Of a stretch of 64,000 bases of DNA, positions 9,833 to 30,794 are shown piece after piece. The stretch is from Clostridia bacterium (GTDB lineage Bacteria > Bacillota > Clostridia > Oscillospirales > Acutalibacteraceae): the NCBI GenBank assembly GCA_017409265.1, contig JAFQSY010000002.1, positions 1 to 64,000 of the forward strand, given 5' to 3'. The notes under the pieces are model-generated. The model ran no database searches. It was not told the DNA's origin and worked only from the letters and a program-made list of their open reading frames with translations. The translations under genes and the position numbers were made by a program. The stretch's first letter is position 1. The number at the start of each line of letters is the position of its first letter.

Positions 9833-9896
9833 GCCCACGTAGCTTAAAGCAGAGCGTTGTTAATCAAAGGTGGCGGTGCGATTCCGCCCACGGGCG
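9833..9896 (+). ncRNA. tRNA-like element with shortened anticodon arm
   Basis: A 64-base tRNA-shaped stretch: acceptor GCCCACG/CACGGGC pairs at 5 of 7 positions, TA, a D arm GCTT/GAGC with a 6-base loop lacking GG, a short arm TTG-TTAAT-CAA in place of the anticodon arm, AGGT, and a perfect T arm GGCGG/CCGCC with loop TGCGATT. No CCA is encoded. A normal anticodon stem of 5 bp and 7-base loop cannot be made. It could be a decayed tRNA-Asn-like gene or a maintained tRNA mimic in the leader of the zinc-ribbon gene. Confidence 0.42.
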
Positions 9897-19530: not shown

Positions 19531-21075
19531 TTGGATAACGAAATTAATAAGAACGGTATTAATGAAGAAGAGGAAATAACCGAAGAACTTGCAGAAGTGG
19601 CAGAAGCTGAAACCGAATCCGAAGAAGAAGCTGCCGAAACACAAGCCGTTGAAGAAGAAGAACCCGATACCGATGAATCGGAAGAAACCGCAGAAAACGA
19701 AGAAATCGCAGAGGAAGCTGCCGAAGAAGATGAAGATTCTCTCTGTATCCTATGCGGCGAAAGGATAAAAAATGAAGAAAGCGACTATTGCTCTGAATGC
19801 GAAGCCGCGATGTATAAAAGAAAAATACCGTTTCTTGCGTGGATTTCGGGAATTGCCGTGATATGCGTGAGCATTTTTGCATTGGTTGTTTCAATGCTTG
19901 TCAGTGCTCCCGTGCTTCAGGCTGCAAGAGGAGATACTTATGCTGCAAAAAACCGCTGGTATGCGGCGTATCTTGAATATTCCGAGGTTTCGTCTGTTGT
20001 TGACGAAATAAGCGGCATTCTCGGCGCTGAAAGTCCGTTTGTGAAGGCGGGCAGAGCGATTGACGAAAAAATCGTTATCAGCTATGCAAAAAGCAGGTCG
20101 CCGCTTGATGCCGTTTATATGGCAACAATGCTTTACGGCGAAACAGCGGTTAAAGAAATGAGCGGAATCAGCGAGTATGTTGAGCTTTACGATGAGTTTT
20201 CAAATAACTATGCGCTGTTAGCGGAGCCGATTGATGCAATGCTTGCAGGCGCGGAATTGAATGAAACCTTTGCCGCTCTCGAAGCTCTTGAGGGTGCAGA
20301 CGGTGTCAACGAGGTTTACCGCAACTATTTCCTTTTCAGCGCAGCCGATTTTTACAAGCTCGGATATCAAGAGCAGCTGAAATATATCGAGGCTGCGGAT
20401 GCCGCCGCAGAGCAGCAGAGCAAGGATTTTTCATGGCTTTATTACCTTGAAATTGCTGATATCCTTTGCCAGGAGGGCGAATATGACAAGGCTCTCAAAT
20501 ATGCCGATGTTCTTGCGGAGAACGACAAAAACAATTACAGAGCCCACGACCTTAAAATGCGAATTGCGCTTGCAAAGGGCGATGCCGATACCGCGAGCAA
20601 AATTCTTGCCGATTTCAAAACAAACAATGAAGGCTTTGATACCGCACAATCGCTTGAAGCAGGTTATCTCCGTGCCACGGGTAATCTTGAAAACAGCAGG
20701 CTGATTATCAAAGAGGGCATTGAGATGCAGGATTCCTCACCCGAGCTTCACCGCCAGCTGGCTCTGCTTTATCTTCTTGAAGAGAACTGGTCTGCGGCAT
20801 TTGAAGAAGCTTTTCTTGCTGACAGCAACGCATCATATCTCGCAAATTACTATATGGACAGCAGCGGATTTACTCCTCAGCTCGACAATACCCTCTATCT
20901 CTGCGCAAAGCTTTGCAAGGAAAAGAATCTGACCGTAAGCGAAAATGCAGCATATATTGACACGATTCTTGATTATTACGCTGAATTTGAGCCCTCAAAG
21001 CAGGTTGCTTCAATTCTGAACGGCGAAAAAACAGTTAATGAAGTTCTGACGGAAGGAGTGTGTGATCTCGCATGA
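19531..21075 (+). CDS. Acidic membrane protein with zinc ribbon and TPR-like repeats
   Basis: A 514-residue protein. Residues 1-70 are almost only Glu, Ala and Thr; a Cys4 ribbon follows (CILCGERIKNEESDYCSEC, 73-91), then one membrane helix (about 102-124), then a helical outer part with TPR-like units (EYDKALKYADVLAENDKNNYRA, GDADTASKILADFKT, ENWSAAFEEAFLAD). The acidic head would be cytoplasmic. TTG start with GGAGGAG eight bases upstream. The next gene overlaps by 4 bases. Function unknown. Confidence 0.78.
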   Translation: MDNEINKNGINEEEEITEELAEVAEAETESEEEAAETQAVEEEEPDTDESEETAENEEIAEEAAEEDEDSLCILCGERIKNEESDYCSECEAAMYKRKIPFLAWISGIAVICVSIFALVVSMLVSAPVLQAARGDTYAAKNRWYAAYLEYSEVSSVVDEISGILGAESPFVKAGRAIDEKIVISYAKSRSPLDAVYMATMLYGETAVKEMSGISEYVELYDEFSNNYALLAEPIDAMLAGAELNETFAALEALEGADGVNEVYRNYFLFSAADFYKLGYQEQLKYIEAADAAAEQQSKDFSWLYYLEIADILCQEGEYDKALKYADVLAENDKNNYRAHDLKMRIALAKGDADTASKILADFKTNNEGFDTAQSLEAGYLRATGNLENSRLIIKEGIEMQDSSPELHRQLALLYLLEENWSAAFEEAFLADSNASYLANYYMDSSGFTPQLDNTLYLCAKLCKEKNLTVSENAAYIDTILDYYAEFEPSKQVASILNGEKTVNEVLTEGVCDLA

Positions 21076-21605
21076 CAGCTCTTTATATTGCATCAAAAAT
21101 TCTCACATTCCCCGGTGCATATCTCCGAGGCTTCTGGGAGCAGCTGACCTGCAAAATTCTCGGTCTGCCTGTTGAAACTCCGGGCTATCTCCGCATTGAC
21201 GAAGCATGCGGACATGTTGAGCACGGACTTGCGCAGAAGGGCTTTTCCGCTTATCTCATGGCAACGGGACCGGGCTTCATGAATCTTATGACGGGATTCC
21301 CGATGTTCCTTGCAGGCTTTATCAATCTTAAATATATGGGCATCAGACCGTCGGATTCAATCGGTCTTTTTGTCCTCTATGTTCTGCTGACCTATGTCGG
21401 AGTTTCGCTCCTGTGTAACGTTTTTCCTCTTGTTGAGGATGCAATGAATCTCCATGACGTAGCTTTTTCACAGAAAAAGATGAATTTCATCGGCAGATTC
21501 CTCGCATTCATTCCGACCATGATAACCTATGCAGGCGCGTATCTCGAAAAGTACGCAGTAACGGTTATTTTATGGATTGTGTTTATTGTTTTGTCATTTG
21601 TATAA
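21072..21605 (+). CDS. Integral membrane protein, unknown function
   Basis: A 177-residue protein with about four membrane helices (around 65-85, 95-120, 138-155, 160-177) and an N-terminal amphipathic part rich in aromatic residues (YLRGFWEQLTCKILGL). ATGA overlap with the upstream TPR-like gene implies coupled translation and joint function. No family recognised. Confidence 0.78.
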   Translation: MTALYIASKILTFPGAYLRGFWEQLTCKILGLPVETPGYLRIDEACGHVEHGLAQKGFSAYLMATGPGFMNLMTGFPMFLAGFINLKYMGIRPSDSIGLFVLYVLLTYVGVSLLCNVFPLVEDAMNLHDVAFSQKKMNFIGRFLAFIPTMITYAGAYLEKYAVTVILWIVFIVLSFV

Positions 21606-21620
21606 CCGTTAACCAATATC

Positions 21621-21653
21621 AAAAGAGCCCATCTTACGATGAGCTCTTTTTTT
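21621..21653 (+). terminator. Terminator of the two-gene membrane operon
   Basis: AAAAGAGC/GCTCTTTT outer stem and CATC/GATG inner stem with one mismatch, loop TTAC, then TTTTTTT. Confidence 0.88.
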
Positions 21654-21717
21654 GCATATTCAATTAAAAAGCACCGTCAAAAAGGGGGAGTTATGCGAAA
21701 ACTAAACAGTAAACGAA

Positions 21718-22113
21718 TTAGCTGCAACAAACGATGTATGATGAACTTATGAGAGCATAGCTTTCATAATCGCAGCGGCTGCAGATTTCATATGTATATG
21801 TTTCTTGGAGACAACGGGGAGATGTTGTTCTAACTTTATGAGTAATAGTTTTTGATGAACCAGATTCAATATCATGACCAAAAAGGGTACATGTAAGTCC
21901 TCTTGCGTCCGCGGCAGCCTCGTTGCATTCTCCGCAGAAATGAGCATGGATTTTTGCTTCTGCTTCTTCGGAAGCCGAATCGGGAACAATAACGGTTATT
22001 TCACCGCCATTGTGTGTGCATGCTTCAGATTCTTCAGCGAATGAAAAAATCTGTAATGCCGAAAACATGAAAACAAGAGCGAGAATAAAGCTCATAGCTT
22101 TTTTTAATCTCAT
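21718..22113 (-). CDS. Small secreted Cys-rich protein
   Basis: A 131-residue protein with a Sec signal peptide (1-26, ending SFAEES), then Cys pairs in CTHNGG, CGEC, CTLFGH, CLQE and CSRCDYES that suggest a zinc- or disulfide-stabilised exported domain. It overlaps the upstream DUF4367-like gene by 4 bases, so it belongs to that sigma-linked operon. Function unknown. Confidence 0.72.
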   Translation of the reverse strand: MRLKKAMSFILALVFMFSALQIFSFAEESEACTHNGGEITVIVPDSASEEAEAKIHAHFCGECNEAAADARGLTCTLFGHDIESGSSKTITHKVRTTSPRCLQETYTYEICSRCDYESYALISSSYIVCCS

Positions 22114-22913
22114 GGTTGATACTCCTTTAAATTGTTAATTATAAATACCATTTCTTCATATGTGAATGCTCCAAATCGGTAAGTGAAACCGTTGTGCTCA
22201 AAAGCACAATAGAAGTAGTTATCAACATCTGAAATTTGAATGTAATGGCAGTTAATGTTATTAATTGTTTCAGTTGATGATGTTTCAATATCAATATACA
22301 TACTTACTGTACTGAAGTTTTCAACGACAATGGAATATAAAGGATTGTTTCTTGAGTAAGTAACGGATTTTCCGTTAGTTTCGATTAAGTATGAAATGCA
22401 CATGAACTCTTCACCATTTGGTAAAGCAGCGGGATAAAGAATATCCAAATCTTCATTTTCGAACAATTCATCAACGGTATCGTATCTGACAGAGTAGTTA
22501 CCGTTTTTTATGATTGTCTTGTTTCCGGACTCAATCCTTTCGCCTGAAAACATGCTGAAAACGGTTTTACCCCATTGCTTGAAATGTTCAAGCGCATCAT
22601 CCTGTCCGTGTGTTGCGCTGATTGCCATAACAAAAATTAAAACAGATATTATTGCTGCCCAAAGAAGCTTTTTAAGGATTCGCTTTCTTCGGAATGACGG
22701 TTTGCCTTTTTCAAAAATATGCTTAATTGCCTTGTCGATTTCTTCATTTGTCAGAGGCTTCCGGTTTTCAAGCTCCATAAGGTAATCGGCGCATTCTGCA
22801 ATAAGGTCATCGTCCATTTTTTTATAGTCTTTACTTGCTTCGCAGTAAAGAATCGCTCTGATTTTGTCAATCAGATGCTCTTGGTCTGTGTTTTTTGAAT
22901 GCTCGTTATCCAT
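22110..22913 (-). CDS. Membrane protein, probable sigma regulator (DUF4367-like)
   Basis: A 267-residue protein: about 85 cytoplasmic residues, with HIFEKGKPSFRRKRILKK before one membrane helix (90-108), then an extracellular domain with the feel of DUF4367 (ILYPAALPNGEEFMCISYLI, YTYEEMVFIINNL). ATG at 22913 has AAAGGAG upstream. It lies downstream of an ECF sigma gene but a terminator hairpin stands between them, so expression of the two need not be equal. Confidence 0.68.
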   Translation of the reverse strand: MDNEHSKNTDQEHLIDKIRAILYCEASKDYKKMDDDLIAECADYLMELENRKPLTNEEIDKAIKHIFEKGKPSFRRKRILKKLLWAAIISVLIFVMAISATHGQDDALEHFKQWGKTVFSMFSGERIESGNKTIIKNGNYSVRYDTVDELFENEDLDILYPAALPNGEEFMCISYLIETNGKSVTYSRNNPLYSIVVENFSTVSMYIDIETSSTETINNINCHYIQISDVDNYFYCAFEHNGFTYRFGAFTYEEMVFIINNLKEYQP

Positions 22914-22999
22914 GAAACTTTCTTCTCCTTTCACCGACAAATTCTTTTTTTATAGCTCCTCCTTTGTCTACATATGACAGAAAAAGCAAAATGTTACAG

Positions 23000-23042
23000 A
23001 AAAAGCCGAAATGTTAACAAAAAGTTCACAATTCGGCTTTTT
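23000..23042 (-). terminator. Terminator or attenuator between sigma and regulator genes
   Basis: AAAAAGCCGAA and TTCGGCTTTTT pair over 11 bases with a 21-base loop; on the minus strand T residues follow. It is placed right after the ECF sigma stop. Confidence 0.7.
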
Positions 23043-23043
23043 T

Positions 23044-23598
23044 TCAGAGCAATTTCAGCTTTATAAGTACAAAAAGTGCAACAACAAATGCGGTCTTTGA
23101 AAGCTCGATAATCTTGTTTTTCAATCTGTAATGCCGGGTTGAAACGGCATTCTGGCTGATATTGAGCTTTTCTCCGACCTGCGAGAGCTTCATGTGTTTA
23201 TCGTAAATGCATTCAAGAAGCTCTCTTTCTTCGGGAGTCAGCTTTGCGAGCAGCTTGCTTTTGGCGTAATCAACAAGGTCCGGATTAATGGGCTTCTCAA
23301 GGTCGAGAATGATATCGGGAATTTCTTCTGTGGGTTCCAGGTTTTCGTCAAGCGGGCAGAGCTTTGACTGCTTCACATTGCGACGGTGTTTTTCTTTGAT
23401 TTTGTGAGCAGCTGTGCTGAAAAGCCATGAACGGATATTGGTTTCTTCAAGAATGGCGGATTTCTGAATGAAGGTCAGAAAAACGTCCTGCGTTATGTCC
23501 TCTGCGTCGCTGTCGTCATTAAGATAACTGCAGCAGAATTTATAGACATCGTAATAGTAATTGCGGCTCAAAGCTTCAACACGGGCTTGGGCTATCAA
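23044..23598 (-). CDS. ECF sigma factor with hydrophobic C-terminal tail
   Basis: A 184-residue ECF sigma factor: region 2 (YDVYKFCCSYLNDDSDAEDITQDVFLTF, IRSWLFSTAAHKIKEKHRR), region 4 (LTPEERELLECIYDKHMKLSQVGEKLNISQNAV). The last 17 residues (AFVVALFVLIKLKLL) are strongly hydrophobic, unusual for a sigma factor and able to attach it to the membrane. TTG at 23598 is preferred since AGGTGA lies five bases upstream; GTG at 23607 lies too close to any ribosome site. Confidence 0.85.
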   Translation of the reverse strand: MIAQARVEALSRNYYYDVYKFCCSYLNDDSDAEDITQDVFLTFIQKSAILEETNIRSWLFSTAAHKIKEKHRRNVKQSKLCPLDENLEPTEEIPDIILDLEKPINPDLVDYAKSKLLAKLTPEERELLECIYDKHMKLSQVGEKLNISQNAVSTRHYRLKNKIIELSKTAFVVALFVLIKLKLL

Positions 23599-23732
23599 AA
23601 TCTTCACCTGCCTTTCCGAAAATGTGTATACAACATTTTATAACATAATTTTCCAAGTTTTTCAACACTTTTCCGGTTTTATGTATAAAAGTATTTGAGA
23701 ATGATTTTTTGATGACAGCAAAACAAAAAATG

Positions 23733-23761
23733 TTGCAAAAAGGGCAAAAATATGGTATCTT
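23733..23761 (+). promoter_or_regulatory. Promoter of the GPH transporter gene
   Basis: TTGCAA, 17-base spacer, TATCTT, 33 bases before the proposed start. Confidence 0.55.
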
Positions 23762-23794
23762 ATAAATGTATCAATCAAAGGCAGGTGAGGTAAT

Positions 23795-25303
23795 ATCAAT
23801 ACAGAGAGAAATCTTGAAGCTGCCGATAATTCCGTTCTGCTGAAAAACAGACGGTTTGTCGGAACAAAAGAAACCGTTGCATATGTTCTTGAAGATACTG
23901 CCGCAAGCCTCAATATCAACGATTTTAAAGACAGATATATTTATGATGTTGTAAAAATCGACTTCAGCTATCTTGCAATTCAGAATATTGTTGCAACAGT
24001 ATGGGATACCTTCAACGATACTTTTATCGGTGTTATCGTTGAAAAAACAAGAACACGTTGGGGAAAGTTCAGACCGTATCTCCTTCTGGGTCAGCTGCCG
24101 CTCACGCTTCTGGGCTTATGGTATTGGCTGATTCCGTTTATGTTTCCCGATACCCCCGGTGACTATCTTCCGAAATGGATATTCTATTTCGCAATGTCGA
24201 TTATCACCGAAACCGCCAACACCTTCACATCAATTGCACGTGCGGGCTACGGCTCAACGCTGACGCCCGAGCCATTGGACCGTTCAAGGCTTATTGCGAC
24301 AGCAAACCTGATGTCGCATTTTGTTGAAGATGTGCCGAAACAGATTTTCGGTATTATCTATGACCTTGTAATCAACGATAAGGTCAAAATCAAATTGCCC
24401 AAGCTTTTCGCAAGCTTCGGTGTTTCGTTTGCAGTTCTCGGTGCATGCTTCTGCCTTTATTTCTTCTTTGTTTCAAGAGAAAGAGTTGCGCAGACGATTA
24501 AAAAGCCGAGCGTAATTCAGGGGTTAAAGGCTATCGTTACGAACAAGCCCATGTTTATTCAGGTGTTGTCATCATTCCTGAGCGGTTTCAGTATCGGCAC
24601 GAGCAGAACGAACTTCTATATTGATGTTATCGGCTCTATTACCTGGAAAACAATCGTCGGCATTCCGGCATTCCCGATTAAATTTATCAGCTACGGTTTT
24701 GTTGAGCCTCTGCGAAAGCGTTTCTCAACAAAGGCTCTCTGGATTATGGAGGACGCATGGACGGATATGTTGTGGCTGACTGTTTTCGGCATAGGCTCGA
24801 TAAACAAAAATTTCATGAAAAAAGCAATCATTCTGCCGATGATGGGCATCGAAGAAATCTTCGAGATGTGTGTTTACGGATTGAGGCGAGTTATTCCTGC
24901 TGAAATCAGCAACGAGTCCATGGACTATTGTGAGTGGAAAAACGGCTACCGCGCAGAGGCTATGATAGGTGTTGCACAGTCAACAATTTCAAAGCTTCAG
25001 CAGGCTGTTATGGGAAGCCTCAACAGTATTGTTCTTAAGAAAATCGGCTATGTTCAGGGCCTTAAGGTCGGAACACAGACCGATAAAACAAAGTGGTGGA
25101 TTTTTGCTCTCGGCACAGGTGTTCCCATCATTACAAGTGCACTGGGTATAGTTCCTAAACTTTTCTATCCTATTTCGGCTGAAAAGCGTGACCTTATGTA
25201 TAGCGAGCTTCGCGAAAGAAGAAGCAAGGTTGCGAATATGATGAATGTTGCAACCGCAGAAGAAGTTGAAGCAATCGCCGAAGCACAGTTCATCAACAAG
25301 TAA
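23795..25303 (+). CDS. GPH/MFS-type sugar:cation symporter, ATC start codon
   Basis: A 502-residue transporter. The coding frame runs from a TGA at 23786 with no ATG, GTG or TTG before 24140, yet residues before 24140 are clearly part of the protein: RNLEAADN, RRFVGTKETVAYVL, and the family signature WDTFNDTFIGVIVEKTRTRWGKFRPYLLLGQ split across a loop. The only well-placed start is ATC at 23795, six bases after AGGTGA. Translation from ATC, or a strain-specific change or base error of ATG, are both possible. Family members move sugars or glucuronides with protons or sodium. About 11-12 membrane helices. Monocistronic. Confidence 0.8.
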   Translation: MNTERNLEAADNSVLLKNRRFVGTKETVAYVLEDTAASLNINDFKDRYIYDVVKIDFSYLAIQNIVATVWDTFNDTFIGVIVEKTRTRWGKFRPYLLLGQLPLTLLGLWYWLIPFMFPDTPGDYLPKWIFYFAMSIITETANTFTSIARAGYGSTLTPEPLDRSRLIATANLMSHFVEDVPKQIFGIIYDLVINDKVKIKLPKLFASFGVSFAVLGACFCLYFFFVSRERVAQTIKKPSVIQGLKAIVTNKPMFIQVLSSFLSGFSIGTSRTNFYIDVIGSITWKTIVGIPAFPIKFISYGFVEPLRKRFSTKALWIMEDAWTDMLWLTVFGIGSINKNFMKKAIILPMMGIEEIFEMCVYGLRRVIPAEISNESMDYCEWKNGYRAEAMIGVAQSTISKLQQAVMGSLNSIVLKKIGYVQGLKVGTQTDKTKWWIFALGTGVPIITSALGIVPKLFYPISAEKRDLMYSELRERRSKVANMMNVATAEEVEAIAEAQFINK

Positions 25304-25314
25304 AACATAAAATT

Positions 25315-25352
25315 AAACTGCAGGCTTGTCAAATAATAAGCCTGCAGTTTTT
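25315..25352 (+). terminator. Terminator of the transporter gene
   Basis: AAACTGCAGGCTT and AAGCCTGCAGTTT form a 13-bp stem around a 10-base loop, followed by TTG TTATAAT. Confidence 0.9.
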
Positions 25353-25360
25353 GTTATAAT

Positions 25361-25416
25361 AAAACAGCTCTATCTTAACAGATAAAGCTGTTTTTGGCGT
25401 CCTCGGCGGGATTCGA
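25361..25416 (-). repeat. Second copy of tRNA-Arg 3' end plus terminator
   Basis: These 56 bases are identical to 25509-25564. On the minus strand each copy holds the T loop end TCGAATCCC, acceptor, CCA and a terminator hairpin (AAAACAGCT/AGCTGTTTT with inner TATCT/AGATA, loop TAAC). The copy is 148 bases from the first and has no tRNA upstream of the T loop. Confidence 0.9.
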
Positions 25417-25498
25417 CTCGCGGCCTGCGGGCCTTGGTCGCTCGCGGTCGCAACAGTCCACCGGACTGTTGCTCTGTGCCGCTCGTCCTTCGAATCCC
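25408..25498. repeat. Palindromic element with tRNA T-loop ends
   Basis: GGGATTCGA (25408-25416) and TCGAATCCC (25490-25498) are perfect inverted ends that both copy a tRNA T-loop. The centre holds the perfect hairpin CAACAGTCC ACC GGACTGTTG (25451-25471). The flanks GGTCGCTCGCGGTCG are GC-rich, unlike the surroundings. It looks like a small non-coding palindromic insertion that targets tRNA T arms. Confidence 0.65.
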
Positions 25499-25508
25499 AT
25501 CTAAAAAC

Positions 25509-25542
25509 AAAACAGCTCTATCTTAACAGATAAAGCTGTTTT
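25509..25542 (-). terminator. Terminator of the interrupted host tRNA-Arg
   Basis: On the minus strand AAAACAGCT-TATCT-loop-AGATA-AGCTGTTTT follows directly after the tRNA CCA and is followed by GTTTTTAG. Confidence 0.8.
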
Positions 25543-25587
25543 TGGCGTCCTCGGCGGGATTCGAACCCACGGCCTTTCGCTTAGGAG
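25543..25587 (-). pseudogene. 3' half of the disrupted host tRNA-Arg(CCU)
   Basis: On the minus strand: anticodon loop CTCCTAA, anticodon-stem strand GCGAA, AGGCC, T arm GTGGG/CCCGC with TTCGAAT, acceptor strand CGAGGAC, G, CCA. Its missing 5' half is at 30710-30748: TTCGC pairs with GCGAA and GTCTTCG with CGAGGAC at all seven positions (one G-T). The two halves were one gene before insertion of the 5.1-kb element. Confidence 0.93.
25581..25587. repeat. attL core TTAGGAG
   Basis: Seven bases equal to the anticodon loop of tRNA-Arg(CCU), repeated at 30710-30716. Identity stops on both sides, so these 7 bases define the crossover region. Confidence 0.85.
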
Positions 25588-25660
25588 ATCCTCCAGAAGC
25601 AGTTTTTGGGTTCCCTTCCAAGGTGCCCTAATCCCTTATATATCAACGATTTCACGCATT

Positions 25661-25780
25661 ATCGAGTTAATCTGTTCCCTTAAAATATCGGCTGATTTTT
25701 GCTGTTTTTTCACGTTCCTGTTAGCAGGCTGTTAGCAAAAAGGCTGTTTTTGGGGTAATGACATCGAGTTAATCTGTTCC
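25661..25780. repeat. Left-end integrase/excisionase binding repeats
   Basis: An 18-base direct repeat beginning ATCGAGTTAATCTG lies at 25661-25678 and 25763-25780. Between them are two copies of GTTAGCA (25720-25726 and 25731-25737). The same motifs recur at the right end. No gene lies in 25588-25993. Confidence 0.7.
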
Positions 25781-25925
25781 TATCGCTTCCAAAAAGAGAT
25801 TTTTTTAAGTTTTATACAGCAATCTAATTGTAAACATATTTTAATTCAAAAGTCAATCGATAACAAAAAACGTACCAATTTACTTTTGGACTGACGGGTT
25901 ACATCTTTGGCAGTTTCACTAAGTA

Positions 25926-25954
25926 TTGATTCAGGCCGAAAAATATGATAAAGT
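25926..25954 (+). promoter_or_regulatory. Promoter of the cargo genes
   Basis: TTGATT, 17-base spacer, TAAAGT, 39 bases before the DUF5131 ATG. Confidence 0.55.
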
Positions 25955-25993
25955 AAACTGAACGATAAATAAGAATTTGGAGAAGTATTTATT

Positions 25994-26710
25994 ATGGCTA
26001 TGTGGAACCCATGGCGTGGTTGTAAAAAATGCAGTGACGGATGTTTGCATTGCTATATTCATAAAGGCGATGCCAAACGCGGTGTTAATACAAACGCCAT
26101 TGTCAAAACAAAAGATTTTTACAAACCCATCGAGAAATTGAAAAACGGAAATTACAAAATGAAAGCAGGGATGGTTTATCTTTGTTTTTCAACGGATTTT
26201 CTAATAGAAGAAGCAGATGAATGGCGTAAAGAATGTTGGTCTATGATTAAGGAGCGACAGGACTGCACATTTTTATTTCTCACCAAGCGAATAGAGCGCT
26301 TCACAAAATGCATTCCGGATGATTGGGGCGAAGGATACGACAATGTCGTTGTATGTTGCACTGTTGAGAATCAAAAGAATGCGGATAAAAAATTGTCGGT
26401 ATTTGCGTCACTTCCAATAAAACATAAATGTATTACCGCACAACCTCTACTTGAAAAAATATATATCGAACCATATTTTGATGATATTGAACTTGTAGTA
26501 GTTGGCGGAGAATCGGATTATCACGCAAGACCGTTTGATTATTCTTGGGCACTTGATATTAGAGAGCAATGTGTTCGCAAAAATGTATCTTTTGAATTTA
26601 GGCAATGCGGAACTCATTTCATAAAAGACGGCAAGGAATACAAATTGCAGACAAAGGATTTGTGCAGTCAAGCAAGAAAAGCAGGAATAGATTTTAAGGC
26701 AAATAATTAA
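25994..26710 (+). CDS. DUF5131 / phage Gp37-Gp68 family protein
   Basis: A 238-residue protein of the DUF5131 family (PF07505), known from phages and mobile elements. It starts with WNPWRGCKKCSDGCLHCY, the family's Cys cluster of radical-SAM-like appearance, then VYLCFSTDFLIEEADEWR, FLFLTKRIERF, VVCCTVENQKNADKKLS, VVGGESDYHARPFDYSW and FEFRQCG. The cluster probably binds Fe-S; the reaction is unknown. Start at 25994 has GGAGAAG upstream; a second ATG at 26000 would give the family-typical MWNPW start. Confidence 0.9.
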   Translation: MAMWNPWRGCKKCSDGCLHCYIHKGDAKRGVNTNAIVKTKDFYKPIEKLKNGNYKMKAGMVYLCFSTDFLIEEADEWRKECWSMIKERQDCTFLFLTKRIERFTKCIPDDWGEGYDNVVVCCTVENQKNADKKLSVFASLPIKHKCITAQPLLEKIYIEPYFDDIELVVVGGESDYHARPFDYSWALDIREQCVRKNVSFEFRQCGTHFIKDGKEYKLQTKDLCSQARKAGIDFKANN

Positions 26711-26739
26711 ACAAATAAGAATTTGACGGAGGTTTATAT

Positions 26740-26907
26740 ATGAAAAACTATGAGGGAATGGGCTTTTTGATTGGGGCAGTAGTCGGTGCCATTCTTACAG
26801 GAATTTGCATCTATTTTACAAGCAGTGTTGCTTCAGCGATAATCTCGTTGGTATGTGCATTGTTAGGTGGCTGGATAGGAAAATCCATACCGAAAACAGA
26901 TAAATAA
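26740..26907 (+). CDS. Small two-helix membrane protein, 55 residues
   Basis: ATG with GGAGG eight bases upstream; 55 codons to TAA. The product MKNYEGMGFLIGAVVGAIL... has two membrane helices (about 7-26 and 30-49) rich in Gly and Ala and ends KSIPKTDK. It is the second cargo gene and carries the same upstream ATAAGAATTTG sequence as its neighbours. No family recognised. Confidence 0.72.
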   Translation: MKNYEGMGFLIGAVVGAILTGICIYFTSSVASAIISLVCALLGGWIGKSIPKTDK

Positions 26908-26956
26908 ATTCCAATAGGTCGAACAGTTAGGAAAATAAGAATTTGGAGGAATTGAA

Positions 26957-27142
26957 ATGAAGCAGTATAAAGTTGTCAGAGTTAAAATGACTTTTGAGGA
27001 ATTAGGAACTGTAAATTTTACAAGACTTGAAACTATAATGAACGATATGGCAAAAGAGGGGTGGGATGTTGTATGCCTATCTCCTCAACCGGGAATATCT
27101 ACGAATTTCCTGCTTGTAACTTTTTGCAAGGATGATGAATAA
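26957..27142 (+). CDS. DUF4177-like small protein
   Basis: A 61-residue protein with the DUF4177 pattern: MKQYKVVRVKMTFEE, LETIMNDMAKEGWDVVCLSP and a closing strand NFLLVTFCK. Family function unknown. GGAGG lies before the ATG. Third cargo gene, ended by a terminator. Confidence 0.75.
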   Translation: MKQYKVVRVKMTFEELGTVNFTRLETIMNDMAKEGWDVVCLSPQPGISTNFLLVTFCKDDE

Positions 27143-27203
27143 CTAATTCCGGTTTGCCAGAGTGATAAATTCCAATTTATCGAACGGTTATGTTCTGTTA
27201 ATA

Positions 27204-27240
27204 TACTTCCCTCTGTTATTTTGACGGAGGGAAGTTCTTT
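27204..27240 (+). terminator. Terminator of the cargo genes
   Basis: ACTTCCCTC/GAGGGAAGT stem with a 13-base loop and TCTTTAT tail. Confidence 0.8.
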
Positions 27241-27350
27241 ATATCCCAAATCAGTCCAAAAGGTAAAAGGGAGCAAAAAACTTCTCGTCATAATAGCATG
27301 ACTTTATGGTATGAAAATATAGTATTTAATACATTATTACTACGCTAATT

Positions 27351-27390
27351 AGCTGTCCGTTTCTAACTGATAGAACGGGCAGCTTTTTTT
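27351..27390 (+). terminator. Second strong terminator
   Basis: A 12-bp stem (AGCTGTCCGTTT with GAACGGGCAGCT) followed by TTTTTTTG. It isolates the cargo genes from the leader region that follows. Confidence 0.85.
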
Positions 27391-27417
27391 GTTTTTCAAA
27401 AAATTTTTTTGAAAACT

Positions 27418-27860
27418 ACCCCCCCAAATGGCACTTCCCAGTGCATATATAGTGAAGGGTATTTTTCCCAAAGCCTTTCACGAACATTGAAAAGTGAATA
27501 AGTCACTCACATAGGACTTTATTTCTGATGAGTAGCTACAGTAGCAGGTACGCCTTGATTTCCGAAAGTGGAAAGAGCGATAACCCCTGCACGATTATCG
27601 GATTGCAACCGATATGGCGATGACAGTCAGAATGATAATGATACTTCTCTACGGAGCTGGCGGAGTACCCGGCAGAGGTGAGATTCCTATGATACGGTTT
27701 AGCAAACTGTAACCTATGTGTTTCCCATAAAGCAAATGCTATGCAGGGGTGTCGAGGACAAATACTGCATTTTAACATAAGACCGATTCGCCAAGAACGG
27801 GTTTCGGTCTATTACATAGCCGTTCAATAACATTGTCGGCTATCTTTAAAATGAAAGGAG
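27418..27860 (+). ncRNA. Candidate structured leader RNA
   Basis: 440 bases without a gene but with many paired segments: GCACT/AGTGC (about 27434), ATCGG/CCGAT (27607-27623), AGGT...ACCT enclosing CGGTTT/AAACTG, a long-range pair CCCCTGCA (27594-27601) with TGCAGGGG (27742-27749), AGACCGA/TCGGTCT, and ATAGCCG/CGGCTAT. It precedes the mini-peptide and ParB genes and is not followed by a terminator. From memory, similar leaders precede ParB-like genes in Tn1549-type elements. Exact ends are unknown. Confidence 0.4.
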
Positions 27861-27868
27861 AGATAAGA

Positions 27869-27892
27869 ATGTATATTCTCGATGGACTTTAG
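27869..27892 (+). CDS. Putative 7-residue leader peptide MYILDGL
   Basis: ATG with AAAGGAG eight bases upstream, seven codons, then TAG. A hairpin GACTTTA/TAAAGTC (27885-27906) covers the last codons and stop, the usual layout of translation-sensing attenuators. Too short to judge by coding statistics. Confidence 0.35.
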   Translation: MYILDGL

Positions 27893-27942
27893 TAAAGAAT
27901 AAAGTCACCCAAAACAAAGTTTTGTAAGAAGGAGGAAAAGTA

Positions 27943-28032
27943 ATGATTCACGCTTTGCTTGTACTGCCCGGTCTTTACGGTGCAGTAATTCTTCAGACAA
28001 TCAGCGAAATCGTTTCTCGCTTTGGCTTCTAA
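27943..28032 (+). CDS. Small hydrophobic peptide, 29 residues
   Basis: AAGGAGG, six bases, ATG, then 29 codons to TAA. The product MIHALLVLPGLYGAVILQT... is a single hydrophobic helix with a short end containing SEIVSRFGF. It ends 6 bases before the ParB start, so the two are probably translated from one transcript. Function unknown. Confidence 0.5.
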   Translation: MIHALLVLPGLYGAVILQTISEIVSRFGF

Positions 28033-28038
28033 TTTAAG

Positions 28039-28434
28039 ATGAACATACAGAGCGAGGAAAAAGTAGTCCAAATCCCAATCAGCCAAATCCGAGATTTCCC
28101 CGAACATCCGTACAAGGTCAAAGACGATGAGAGCATGAGTGAGCTTGTTGACAGCATTATGCAGAGAGGCCTAATACAGCCGGTCATCATAAGACCAACG
28201 GAGGACGGAAACTACGAAATGGTATCGGGACACAGACGAAAACGAGCCTTTGAAATTGCAGGGATGAAAAACATCCCTGCAAGAGTAAAAGAAATGACGA
28301 AGGACGAAGCAATATTAGCAATGGTTGATTCAAACCTTCAAAGAGAGGTTATCCTACCCAGCGAAAAGGCATTCGCATACAAGATGAGGTTGGAGGCTAT
28401 GAACAGACAAGGTCAAAGAACTGATATGGGTTGA
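28039..28434 (+). pseudogene. ParB N-terminal domain, truncated
   Basis: 131 residues with the ParB/Srx nuclease-like domain: VVQIPISQIRDFPEHPYKV, IMQRGLIQPVIIRP, YEMVSGHRRKRAFEIAGM, VDSNLQRE. The HTH and C-terminal parts of ParB are missing; the frame stops 12 codons after SEKAFAYKMRLEAMNRQGQRTD. Sequence from a different gene follows at once in another frame, so a deletion joined the two. It may still make a short ParB fragment. Ribosome site is weak. Confidence 0.85.
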
Positions 28435-28540
28435 TGGGACAAGACGAGTTTTAGAGGACAGCTTTGAAAAGTGGTACGCATCTCAGAGCCATTATAAAAA
28501 AGTAATGGAGATAAAGGAGGTAGAGAGATTTGTCGATTAA
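28409..28540 (+). pseudogene. C-terminal remnant of an HTH-type accessory protein
   Basis: In the frame beside ParB, the codons read VKELIWVDGTRRVLEDSF, EKWYASQSHYKKV and then EVERFVD before TAA at 28538. SFEKWYA.Q..Y.KV is the tail of repeated helix-turn-helix units of Tn1549-like elements, from memory. It has no start of its own; it is the downstream side of the deletion. Confidence 0.55.
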
Positions 28541-28748
28541 AGAAAGAGTAAAAAAAATAAACGGAAATCCTTTTGTTAAGAAAAGCTACACAGTTGAAGA
28601 AATAGTATCCTTGCTCGGAATAACAAGACAGTCGGTTTATAAACTCATAGATAAAGGGTGTTTTTCTGCCGTGAAGGTTGAGAAAGGATACCGCATTAGG
28701 AAAGATAGTTTTGACAGATGGTTAGACGAAAAAGAAAGTGAGGAATAA
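28530..28748 (+). CDS. Excisionase-type HTH protein
   Basis: A 72-residue DNA-binding protein of the MerR-like/HTH_17 excisionase family: YTVEEIVSLLGITRQSVYKLIDKG, then VEKGYRIRKDSFDRWLDE. Such proteins bend att DNA and favour excision. TTG start with AAGGAGG nine bases upstream, overlapping the end of the remnant reading frame. The integrase starts 3 bases after its stop. Confidence 0.88.
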   Translation: MSIKERVKKINGNPFVKKSYTVEEIVSLLGITRQSVYKLIDKGCFSAVKVEKGYRIRKDSFDRWLDEKESEE

Positions 28749-28751
28749 ACA

Positions 28752-30206
28752 ATGGCAACAATATTAAAAAGAAAGAACAGATATTCGGTAGTATATCGCT
28801 ATACCGATGAAGAAGGCAAAAGTAAACAGAAATGGGAAACCTTTGACACTAACGCAGAAGCAAAGAAAAGAAAAGCAGAGATTGAGTATCAGCAGGATAA
28901 CGGAAGTTTTGTTGTTCCTACAGCAGTAACGGTTGCTGAATTGCTGGAAGAGTATTGTGCAATATACGGAGTTAATAATTGGGCAATGAGCACTTATGAG
29001 ACCCGTAAAGGTCTTATATACAATTATATCAATCCTATAATCGGTGATTATAAGTTGACAGATATAACACCGTTAATGATGGATACCTATTACAAAAGTT
29101 TGCAAAAGGTTAAAGCCAAATCGTCAAAAAACCGCAAAGCTCAAACAACTTATATAACTGCACATACCGTAAATGAAATACACAAGTTACTTCGTAGTGC
29201 TTTTGGTCAGGCGGTCAAATGGGAACTTATGCAAAGAAATCCTGTGCTTAACGCCACAGTTCCGAAACACGAATATCAGAAAAGGGATATATGGACAGCG
29301 GAAACATTGCTTCACGCACTTGAAGTTTGTGACGATGATATTCTCGCTTTGGCAATCAACTTGGCTTTTTCCTGCTCATTGCGTATGGGTGAAGTGCTTG
29401 GATTAACTTGGGACTGCATTGAAATATCCAAAGAAAAGATAGAAGATAACGATGCCTTTATCTTCGTGAATAAGGAACTCCAGAGGGTAAACAAGGAGAC
29501 AATGGAAAAGCTCGACAAAAAAGATGTAATACTTGTGTTTCCGCACATTCTATCGGGAAACAATACATCATTAGTTCTTAAAAGTCCGAAAACAAAAACG
29601 AGTGTCAGAAAAATCTTTTTACCAAAAACGGTTGCTTCAATGCTTACTGAACGTAAAAAGCAAATTGAGGAAATGAAAGAGTTATACGGAGATGAATACA
29701 CCGATTACGATTTAGTTTTTTGTCATTCATCCGGCAGACCAATGGAGTCGCAAGTAATCAGCAGAGCGTTAAAAAAGCTCATTACGGACAATGATTTACC
29801 GCCCATAGTATTTCACTCTTTCCGTCATGCGAGTATTACATACAAGCTAAAATGGAACGGGGGAGATATGAAATCCGTACAAGGCGATTCAGGTCACGCA
29901 CGAATGGATATGGTTGCAGATGTATATAGCCATATAATTGATGAAGATAGGCGTTTTAATGCACAGAAATTTGAGGAACAGTTTTATAATACAAAAGGAT
30001 TACGAAATACTGAAGAAGGTAAGACGGCACCAATGCCAAGATTTTCAAATAATATTGAATTACTTGATACAATGGCAGTAGTTGAAGATGAGGAAACTGA
30101 AATCACAGAAGAACCAAAAGAAGATGACAATGTGGCTTTGCTCACAAAGATATTAGCCAACCCTGATGCAGCAGCACTCCTAAAAGCATTAGCCAAATCT
30201 TTATAA
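28752..30206 (+). CDS. int: Tyrosine recombinase / integrase
   Basis: A 484-residue phage-type integrase. An N-terminal AP2-like arm-binding domain (ILKRKNRYSVVYRYTDEEGK), a core-binding SAM-like domain (about 60-160), and a catalytic domain with Arg in CSLRMGEVLGL, HSFRHASIT, GDSGHARMD and the nucleophile Tyr in VYSHII. An acidic tail EDEETEITEEPKEDD follows. It would recombine the 7-bp TTAGGAG core. Arm-type repeats at 25.7 and 30.3-30.5 kb fit its N-terminal domain. Cotranscribed with the excisionase. Confidence 0.96.
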   Translation: MATILKRKNRYSVVYRYTDEEGKSKQKWETFDTNAEAKKRKAEIEYQQDNGSFVVPTAVTVAELLEEYCAIYGVNNWAMSTYETRKGLIYNYINPIIGDYKLTDITPLMMDTYYKSLQKVKAKSSKNRKAQTTYITAHTVNEIHKLLRSAFGQAVKWELMQRNPVLNATVPKHEYQKRDIWTAETLLHALEVCDDDILALAINLAFSCSLRMGEVLGLTWDCIEISKEKIEDNDAFIFVNKELQRVNKETMEKLDKKDVILVFPHILSGNNTSLVLKSPKTKTSVRKIFLPKTVASMLTERKKQIEEMKELYGDEYTDYDLVFCHSSGRPMESQVISRALKKLITDNDLPPIVFHSFRHASITYKLKWNGGDMKSVQGDSGHARMDMVADVYSHIIDEDRRFNAQKFEEQFYNTKGLRNTEEGKTAPMPRFSNNIELLDTMAVVEDEETEITEEPKEDDNVALLTKILANPDAAALLKALAKSL

Positions 30207-30212
30207 AAATGG

Positions 30213-30243
30213 AAAAGGCAGTCCGAGAGGATTGCCTTTTTAC
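30213..30243 (+). terminator. Terminator of the integrase gene
   Basis: AAAAGGCAGTCC GAGA GGATTGCCTTTT, 12-bp stem with one G-T, T tail. Confidence 0.88.
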
Positions 30244-30264
30244 TATTATATATCCTTATTAAAT

Positions 30265-30456
30265 ATCGAGTTAACTGAATAACAATCACTTTTTTGTTAG
30301 CAAAAAAGCTTCGGGATTTTTTCTCGTGTTAGCAAAATGCAGATTTTGTTAGCAAAATTTCAAAATTTCTGCTAACAAATGTTAGCAGTGACATTCACCT
30401 TGAAATTGAAAGGACAATTCAAGTAATTCCGCCTTGGGGAGGCGATTTCTGCTAAC
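30265..30456. repeat. Right-end arm-type integrase sites
   Basis: ATCGAGTTAA at 30265 and six copies of GTTAGCA: direct at 30296, 30328, 30348 and 30381, inverted (TGCTAAC) at 30370 and 30450. Most are followed by AAAA. Two more copies lie at the left end. The layout is that of arm-type sites bound by the integrase N-terminal domain. Confidence 0.72.
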
Positions 30457-30503
30457 AAAAATATGCGATTTTGGTGGATGTCAATGAGTTAATAAAAAAC
30501 AAA

Positions 30504-30543
30504 GAAGCCGAAAACCCTTGATATATCAAGGGTTTTCGACTTC
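30504..30543 (-). terminator. Terminator of the element-borne tRNA-Arg
   Basis: A 40-base near-perfect palindrome (GAAG.CGAAAACCCTTGATA and its complement, one mismatch) followed on the minus strand by TTTGTTTTTTATT, five bases after the tRNA end. Confidence 0.85.
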
Positions 30544-30548
30544 AAAAA

Positions 30549-30623
30549 TGGCACCCCCTACCGGGATCGAACCGATATCTAGCCCTTAGGAGGGGCTTAT
30601 TCTATCCATTGAACTAAGGAGGC
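30549..30623 (-). tRNA. tRNA-Arg (anticodon CCT), carried by the element
   Basis: A complete 75-base tRNA: acceptor GCCTCCT/AGGGGGT with two wobble pairs, D arm GTTC/GAAT with GG in the loop, anticodon arm AGCCC-CTCCTAA-GGGCT, T arm ATCGG/CCGGT with TTCGATC, G, CCA. It has the same anticodon as the host tRNA that the element splits but differs in nearly every stem, so it is not a duplicate of the host gene. It lies 87 bases inside the right junction, in the orientation of the host tRNA. Confidence 0.94.
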
Positions 30624-30667
30624 ATATGTGGAATTTATGGAATTGTATGATACTGTATTAACTTGTT

Positions 30668-30698
30668 GTCAATCACTTTTCATCAAAAAGTGATTGAC
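30668..30698. other. 13-bp hairpin between orphan tRNA half and replacement tRNA
   Basis: GTCAATCACTTTT and AAAAGTGATTGAC form a perfect stem with loop CATCA. No T tract follows on the minus strand. Its minus-strand 3' arm contains TTGACA, which could be the -35 of a private promoter for the replacement tRNA (best -10 TACAAT at a 19-base spacing). It could also be a binding or processing site. Confidence 0.5.
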
Positions 30699-30709
30699 AT
30701 AACAAACAA

Positions 30710-30716
30710 TTAGGAG
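30710..30716. repeat. attR core TTAGGAG
   Basis: Right copy of the 7-bp anticodon-loop sequence that bounds the element; pairs with 25581-25587. Confidence 0.85.
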
Positions 30717-30748
30717 GCGAACGCTCTATCCTGCTGAGCTACGAAGAC
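30710..30748 (-). pseudogene. 5' half of the disrupted host tRNA-Arg(CCU)
   Basis: On the minus strand GTCTTCG, TA, D arm GCTC/GAGC with loop AGCAGGATA, G, anticodon-stem strand TTCGC and the loop CTCCTAA. The 3' half is 5.1 kb away at 25543-25587. The host promoter is intact at 30766-30794. Confidence 0.93.
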
Positions 30749-30765
30749 ATATATCGGACTCACAC

Positions 30766-30794
30766 ATTCTATCAAAAACCCATTGTAAAGTCAA
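30766..30794 (-). promoter_or_regulatory. Host tRNA-Arg promoter
   Basis: On the minus strand TTGACT, 17-base spacer, TAGAAT, ending 18 bases before the 5' end of the tRNA half. It now reads into the element towards the replacement tRNA. Confidence 0.82.

Follow-up and report, generated by a model that had tools for sequence, protein, structure and literature searches.

Organization of the interrupted tRNA locus

The locus described here lies in a 64,000-nucleotide stretch of DNA from a clostridial genome of the family Acutalibacteraceae (contig JAFQSY010000002.1), referred to throughout as the window, in which two halves of a host tRNA-Arg(CCU) gene flank a 5.13-kb integrase element (25588-30716). 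Genomes, contigs and loci used for comparison carry the prefixes G, C and L. Read directly from the window sequence, the 5' half of the host tRNA runs from 30748 to 30710 and the 3' half from 25587 to 25543, both on the minus strand. The two halves overlap only in the 7 bases CTCCTAA (minus strand; 30710-30716 and 25581-25587 on the plus strand), which make up the entire anticodon loop; the dead 5' half ends in this core and the orphan 3' half begins with it. Rejoined, the halves make up a tRNA of 77 nt, for which the minimum-energy fold is a complete cloverleaf; all positions pair in the anticodon stem (5/5) and in the acceptor stem (7/7). The sequence that now lies 3' of the 5' half fails to restore a tRNA when the junction is folded, and thus the host gene is truly broken. 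According to these folds and the pairing test described below, the host tRNA holds an attB-type site with a 7-bp core that is too short for gene repair. A host promoter-like site (TTGACT-17-TAGAAT; 30766-30794, minus strand; consensus scan) remains upstream of the broken tRNA.

A second, complete tRNA-Arg(CCU) lies just inside the element (30549-30623, minus strand), as called by ARAGORN and Rfam, and is followed on its 3' side by a terminator-like hairpin (30504-30543, minus strand). It is separated from the dead 5' half by an 86-bp left end (30624-30709, minus strand), which contains a perfect 14-bp hairpin at 30667-30699. A TTGACA-19-TACAAT stretch can be made out by eye within this left end, and a TTGACA-17-TAAAAT stretch likewise in the leader of some relatives, although the consensus scan lists promoter-like sites only outside the left end; a promoter of its own for the replacement tRNA in the window is therefore no more than faintly suggested. 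Beyond the replacement tRNA, the element encodes a tyrosine integrase of 484 amino acids (28752-30206, plus strand; Pfam PF00589, PF14659, PF14657) and an excisionase-type helix-turn-helix protein (28530-28748, plus strand; Pfam PF12728, NCBIfam TIGR01764). The first-pass annotation of this DNA had claimed that an element splits tRNA-Arg(CCU) in its anticodon loop, leaving halves with only 7 bases in common and a host gene that is really broken. The coordinates, the cloverleaf fold, the pairing of the halves and the junction fold bear out both parts of this description.

Unbroken and apparently rebuilt sites within the genus

An unbroken 77-nt tRNA of at least 90% identity is present in 11 of 36 other genomes of the same genus, as a check proposed with the first description would have it. 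At six of those 11 loci it lies less than 300 bp from pgk in the orientation of the window, while in G014 it is found 1.5 kb from pgk in the opposite orientation. G010 has one unbroken tRNA of the window's host type, situated between homologues of orf177 and pgk. G021, on the other hand, carries the same halves and element ends as the window, with the 5' half identical at 39/39 and the 3' half at 45/45 positions. The two halves are located on separate contigs, where pgk flanks one and a homologue of orf177 (the window gene at 21072-21605) flanks the other. The end of one G021 contig (C18; L042, position 8371) coincides exactly with the replacement tRNA's anticodon loop; a further element may have entered it, or the assembly may have forked there.

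A different arrangement is found in G015, also of this genus, where 3.4 kb separate a full tRNA from a 3' half that shares 45 identical bases with it (C20; L040, 2974-6464). No relative of the window integrase was detected in the contig that holds this 3.4-kb stretch. The arrangement seems, from its sequence, to be classic rebuilding of the target, and rebuilding (G015) and replacement (G000) seem to strike the same tRNA within one genus.

Several further observations concern the DNA around the orphan 3' half in the window. Between the orf177 homologue and this half, positions 21606-25542 are extra DNA relative to G010 and G021, with a sigma-factor-like open reading frame (ORF), a membrane protein ORF and an MFS_2 transporter. 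Within it, a 148-bp duplication (25358-25542) adjoins the orphan half and consists of a hairpin and a tRNA 3' end that is truncated; behind it comes a palindromic, GC-rich repeat (gcaacagtccaccggactgttgc). A weak tRNA-like match elsewhere in the window (9833-9896; RF00005, 37.7 bits), without an ARAGORN call, is possibly a tRNA remnant.

A replacement tRNA that travels with the element

A scan of species genomes for relatives of the integrase returned 32 loci. Among the 28 loci that were read, a bare CCU-type 3' half lies within 2.5 kb beyond int in 22 by a strict pattern and in two more by eye (L067, L075), whereas L080 and L084 have no 3' half beyond int and only 66 bases are available there in L077. 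At L078 (position 1453, G168), the integrase relative is followed by a bare UCU-type 3' half with the loop CTTCTAA, and part of the integrase family may use tRNA-Arg(UCU). A tRNA with the anticodon ACG was also seen near the integrase relative at L096, with no dead half beside it in the stretch examined. The 5' halves were searched for in the genomes of 25 of the 32 integrase loci with the pattern GGATAN10CTCCTAA, which matched in 23 of them. In 21 of the 25 there are at least two close matches, mostly 104-125 bp apart, and their order is that of the window: the dead 5' half comes first and the next tRNA after it.

That the complete tRNA belongs to the element is indicated by its recurrence behind unlike targets. 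In G150, G152, G153, G154, G156, G159 and G161, one identical 77-nt replacement tRNA stands behind seven different dead halves, and the same tRNA is also present in Monoglobus pectinilyticus. In six of the seven genomes the broken 5' half is clearly unlike that of the replacement, while in G153 the two differ at only 2/39 positions. This recurrence upholds the claim that the element brings a complete, non-identical tRNA-Arg(CCU). The possibility that the replacement was made different to avoid self-attack was also considered and found no support, given the 2/39 difference in G153 and the same anticodon-stem bases in G159.

The replacement tRNA of the window is itself identical at 75/75 positions in G022 and G149, where the leader agrees at only 60/86 and 64/87 positions and the tail at 88/123 and 90/123. 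Since the tRNA is kept intact while its surroundings are about 70-74% identical, it is probably under selection. The replacement tRNA of G148 is 68/75 identical and still pairs at 5/5 positions of the anticodon stem, as expected of a working tRNA.

The relationship between the scattered halves was assessed in 24 genomes, namely 21 of the 25 searched with the 5'-half pattern together with G000, G022 and G024. G151 (two tandem matches, stretch not fetched), G155 (a single intact match), G160 and G168 (no match) were left out. The orphan 3' half at the integrase locus forms 12/12 stem pairs with the outermost dead 5' half in 23 of the 24 genomes, and 11/12 in the remaining one (G156). When halves were combined across genomes, 12/12 pairing occurred in 36 of 552 combinations, and in only 1 of 428 where the 5' halves were unlike, i.e., differing at more than 4 of 39 positions. 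The match of the halves is thus not due to chance.

Proposed mechanism

These data suggest that an integrative element breaks tRNA-Arg(CCU) at the anticodon loop and supplies a whole replacement, and that later elements can repeat the process; judged from sequence comparison, we give this reading a probability of roughly 0.9. In this scheme, the tyrosine integrase would recombine the host gene, at its anticodon loop, with an attP core of 7 bp. The placement of the crossover at the loop follows from the shared core, the paired halves and the uninterrupted homologues, while the enzymatic step itself is inferred. As attP lacks a matching 3' half, the host gene is not rebuilt; instead, the complete tRNA-Arg(CCU) of the element, with its terminator, 86 bp inside the left end, would become the resident gene. 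The constancy of the loop would let the element enter hosts whose tRNA is otherwise different. The loop is identical in all 45 distinct CCU tRNAs called, though part of this sequence set was chosen by the loop motif itself. Since the replacement tRNA offers the same loop, the next element can break the replacement in its turn. The inner 3' halves and element bodies are often lost later, possibly through recombination between the right ends of the newer and the older element, leaving rows of scars of about 100 bp.

Stacked scars and the loss of earlier elements

Rows of at least two dead 5' halves are found in several genomes, with up to four in G530. Fourteen stacks with at least two unlike dead halves are informative for the order of events and were assembled partly by searching whole genomes for 3' halves; G169, whose three dead halves are identical and hence uninformative, and G385 (three matches) were left out. 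This search requires the motif TTCRANYC and some of the genomes are incomplete (63% for G022), so that a missing 3' half is weak evidence. Nested insertion into a resident tRNA is seen on a single contig of G502, where the 3' halves stand in the predicted order: pairing is 12/12 between the nearer one and the inner dead half, and again 12/12 between the farthest one and the outer dead half. Inner parts of the elements are often lost from stacks. Only the partner of the outermost, and thus oldest, dead half was found in eight of the 14 (G022, G053, G156, G161, G163, G167, G530 and G044, the last favoring the outermost partner by 12 versus 11 pairs only). The stricter rule that only the oldest 3' half ever survives was dropped, as it holds for just these eight in the whole-genome test.

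How the inner parts are lost can be read in two ways. In one, elements simply nest and the inner pieces disappear independently, which fits the nested bodies with nested 3' halves of G502, the survival of an inner 3' half only in G478, the lack of any in G141, G075 and G491, and the existence of integrase-free remnants (G022, G024). In the other, a newer element displaces the older body by recombination between right ends. The eight stacks that retain the oldest 3' half alone argue for displacement, as does the position of that half 0.3-0.4 kb behind an integrase in G156, G161, G163 and G167, which is what displacement predicts. Independent loss is a serious contender that we place a little short of even odds, and displacement through the right ends is possibly one route of loss.

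A number of observations weigh against the proposed scheme of serial insertion. The unbroken tRNA of G010 sits behind a dead 5' half of a different type, so that it offers no pristine empty site; it is taken as an earlier round rather than a virgin site. G155 and G158 have one match each to the 5'-half pattern, and G160 and G168 have none. G502 holds a third, unpaired 3' half between the other two, with integrase matches near the first two. The only partner found in G478 is the inner one, on another contig. The 3' half of G123 fails to pair with any of its three dead halves, and an older scar, now garbled, is found upstream. The whole-genome search recovered no orphan 3' half from G075, G141 and G491. 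In G157, a single dead 5' half contrasts with three orphan 3' halves, all of the same type and each following an integrase of its own. In sum, the orphan 3' halves follow no single simple rule across the 14 stacks.

Two arrays stand apart from these stacks. The three integrases of the G157 array (C68; L268, L269, L271) are 52-73% identical to that of the window, the single dead 5' half lies elsewhere, and the array goes beyond the stack model. In G169 (C107; L104/L181), three identical dead 5' halves spaced at 256-258 bp precede an intact, near-identical tRNA, which may reflect repeated rounds by one element or a duplication.

The wider proposition is that the resident tRNA-Arg(CCU), instead of just being inherited, belongs to mobile elements across a sizeable fraction of one clostridial order and is overwritten repeatedly there, that the loop core widens the host range, and that newcomers compete, tend to erase their predecessor and leave age-ordered scars. 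Confidence in this proposition is reduced because the loss of predecessors follows no single rule, and we consider it only slightly favored over its negation.

Alternative explanations

Tandems of tRNA genes are common, and the dead half and its neighbor could go back to two host tRNA-Arg(CCU) genes in ordinary tandem, of which the element later split one. The replacement tRNA of G022 persists without an integrase match, as this explanation would allow, and one left end consists of a complete tRNA followed by another. Among the 24 genomes of the pairing test, which were chosen by integrase or halves, a complete CCU tRNA is present in 22 (the contig ends before a complete replacement tRNA in G158 and G163), and it always stands behind at least one dead half. 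The spacing is mostly 92-125 bp, and the same leader and tRNA recur behind unlike broken tRNAs. The distribution of the tandem signature across the order points the same way. In an even draw from the order, 20 of 197 genomes, representing 16 of 111 genera, showed it, and 17 of the 20 tandems end in an intact tRNA, while the other three (L204, L205, L214) reach the end of the sequence before the second tRNA is complete. The same search with a UCU anticodon gave 0/197, and the reversed pattern gave none. This control is fair, since the pattern does detect single UCU genes, doing so in 48 of 59 genomes from the order. Among the matches listed, 43 of 50 share one and the same 22-base stretch of tRNA-Arg(UCU), whereas CCU stretches vary widely. 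Across the class, the tandem search matched in 6 of 291 genomes; the class-wide single pattern matched in 184 of 291, many of them chance matches outside tRNAs, and was not used for a rate. A host tandem is therefore very improbable.

The usual published pattern is an island that inserts at the anticodon loop and rebuilds the gene with its own 3' half, as catalogued by Islander (PMC4383910), and G015, of the same genus, resembles it. The second tRNA would then be an unrelated neighbor. In the window, the junction fold fails, the matching 3' half is 5.1 kb away, and replacement tRNAs move between hosts with the element end. The folds and the pairing test refute rebuilding at the window locus, which leaves this explanation slightly less credible still than a host tandem. 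Finally, a functional split tRNA, with halves joined after transcription as in some archaea, would account for the perfect pairing that the halves keep and for the remaining host promoter, but it can practically be set aside: a complete tRNA of the same anticodon adjoins, in G022 and G123 the older 5' halves have become truncated or garbled, a row of several 5' halves often has a single 3' half or no such half to match, and we know of no bacterial trans-splicing of this kind.

Host requirement for the replacement tRNA

The first-pass annotation further proposed that the element makes itself needed for the decoding of AGG. In favor of this, the element-borne replacement is the only intact CCU tRNA found in a genome that is about 80% complete, a count of other CCU-anticodon genes having yielded no other intact copy. 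The replacement tRNA also persists without a detected integrase relative in G022 and G024, which points to use by the host. The claim itself is weak. A tRNA-Arg(UCU) is present in the same genome and could read AGG by wobble. AGG is rare: the six host genes of the window that were counted contain 3 AGG versus 39 AGA codons. Clean excision of the element would also make the host gene whole again. Dependence of the host on the replacement tRNA for AGG decoding is therefore no more than a possibility.

A reduced element and its full-size relatives

The remaining parts of the window element indicate its origin. Comparison with G149, G148, G021 and the loci L057 and L058 identifies it as a reduced copy. 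Its right end (25588-25871, minus strand; 99% identical in G021) is homologous to the arm downstream of int in L057 and L058, which means that the inner core is inverted relative to the element ends. A ParB gene (28039-28434, plus strand; PF02195) retains the N-terminal domain only, with a 96% identical stretch in G149, compared with 311 amino acids for the ParB of the Suipraeoptans element described below, and is probably a remnant of a larger element. Positions 27399-28411 are 97% identical in G149, and a pemK RNA motif (RF02913; 27635-27692, plus strand) lies in a stretch common to G149 and G021. A cluster of TTAGCA/TGCTAA repeats (30290-30470), together with copies at 25721 and 25732, accounts for 8 of the 13 copies in the 64 kb, and the repeats at both element ends are probably arm sites of the integrase. 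The predicted cargo consists of a DUF4177 protein (26957-27142, plus strand; Pfam) and a DUF5131 protein (25994-26710, plus strand; Pfam/NCBIfam) that is absent at the same place in G021; the latter also matches 'radical SAM mobile pair protein A', though weakly and below the cut-off. VirB4, VirD4, relaxase and MobC genes were not found in the ORF list or in a Pfam scan of six element proteins, and neither was a phage structural gene in that scan. The window element is thus a deleted, inverted, small derivative of larger elements, in which the integrase and the replacement tRNA were kept.

Two such larger elements were recognized. In Suipraeoptans intestinalis, an element of about 50 kb (1226305 to 1175777) encodes a VirB4-type ATPase of the CD1110 family (1051 bits against NF045971, cut-off 325), a relaxase, a CHAP hydrolase, ParB and a large SNF2/methylase protein. 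According to the record annotation, an element of about 50 kb in Monoglobus encodes VirD4 (CD1115 family), VirB4 (CD1110 family), MobC and a relaxase, as well as predicted resistance genes tet(O/32/O) and tet(40), and it has a dead 5' half at one end and the matching 3' half after int. The Monoglobus record (NZ_OY725736.1, 517,814 bp; L193/L196) is labelled a plasmid, although it contains an aminoacyl-tRNA synthetase and housekeeping genes and looks chromosomal. By gene content, these two full-size relatives with tRNA-swapping ends are predicted conjugative elements. In a Subdoligranulum record (OY725843.1), a dead 5' half and an intact CCU tRNA lie next to an integrase relative. One scan of viral contigs gave no confirmed relative. 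Against a non-phage carrier stand four unannotated, unverified 'Bacteriophage sp.' scaffolds from feces with related integrases at 51-69% identity; no intact tRNA was found in these four records, and two of them show a bare 3' half.

Relation to known systems

The closest precedent, which the first-pass annotation had missed, is tRNA-dependent lysogeny, in which actinobacteriophages replace a host tRNA that they break (Guerrero-Bustamante and Hatfull, 2024; PMC10865867). The likenesses are a tyrosine integrase beside the attachment site, an attB in a host tRNA, a tRNA that is not rebuilt and an element-borne tRNA of the same isotype. The core measures 8-17 bp in those phages and 7 bp here. The carriers described there are temperate phages of Actinobacteria acting on Lys, Ile2 and Leu tRNAs and tested with mutants, whereas the clostridial elements at tRNA-Arg(CCU) are non-phage and known from sequence; they further differ in that two relatives have conjugation genes and that scars of several rounds are stacked. 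The sequence features of tRNA-dependent lysogeny are thus found here, a temperate-phage carrier is not, and by analogy the window system would work like tRNA-dependent lysogeny without being a lysogeny. The same source leaves the prevalence beyond actinobacteriophages open and names Lj965 of Lactobacillus johnsonii.

In Sinorhizobium meliloti, an unlike prophage tRNA also takes the place of the host gene, though these are prophages of Alphaproteobacteria, and the available parts of the two reports describe no serial stack (PMC11476347; PMC12429752). Islander islands share the tyrosine integrase, the anticodon-loop crossover, a displaced fragment and tandem arrays, but they are detected through a target rebuilt from an identical fragment (PMC4383910), while here the gene is replaced whole. 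Conjugative elements of the CD1110/CD1115 type share VirB4 (CD1110) and the relaxase with the full-size relatives, and in Monoglobus also VirD4 (CD1115) and MobC; the window copy differs from them in that none of their conjugation genes was found. The first-pass annotation overlooked both the published phage precedent and the large serial-overwriting family to which the window element belongs. No clostridial or conjugative whole-tRNA replacement and no serial stacks were found in the literature searched, which covered few subscription journals. Within that literature, carriers in Clostridia with conjugation genes, a 7-bp core equal to the anticodon loop, a replacement common to unlike hosts and stacked scars look new.

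The evolutionary link between rebuilding and replacement of tRNAs is called unclear in an mBio paper of 2024. Of 36 groups of left ends, five contain TTCRANYC no more than 45 nt from the core, versus 1.1% of shuffles. One of these five proved to be a complete tRNA with a further tRNA behind it, so that four are counted, in which TTCRANYC lies 11 nt past the core. These four groups keep a shrunken stretch resembling a tRNA 3' half, which hints that whole replacement grew from classic rebuilding. Together with the apparent occurrence of both modes in one genus, such left ends make the link testable.

Implications

Genes for tRNAs are regarded as very stable parts of a genome, whereas here one such gene acts as a turnstile through which mobile DNA passes, and a single place can preserve the record of up to four earlier rounds. 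Replacement of the whole gene would account for the ability of one element to settle in very different hosts, one carrier being the gut bacterium Monoglobus with its two predicted tetracycline-resistance genes. Tools that seek an identical fragment of the target tRNA, such as Islander, are expected to miss tRNA-swapping islands. If the reading is true, elements compete through a gene of translation and leave behind a row of scars in which the order of their arrival may be read.

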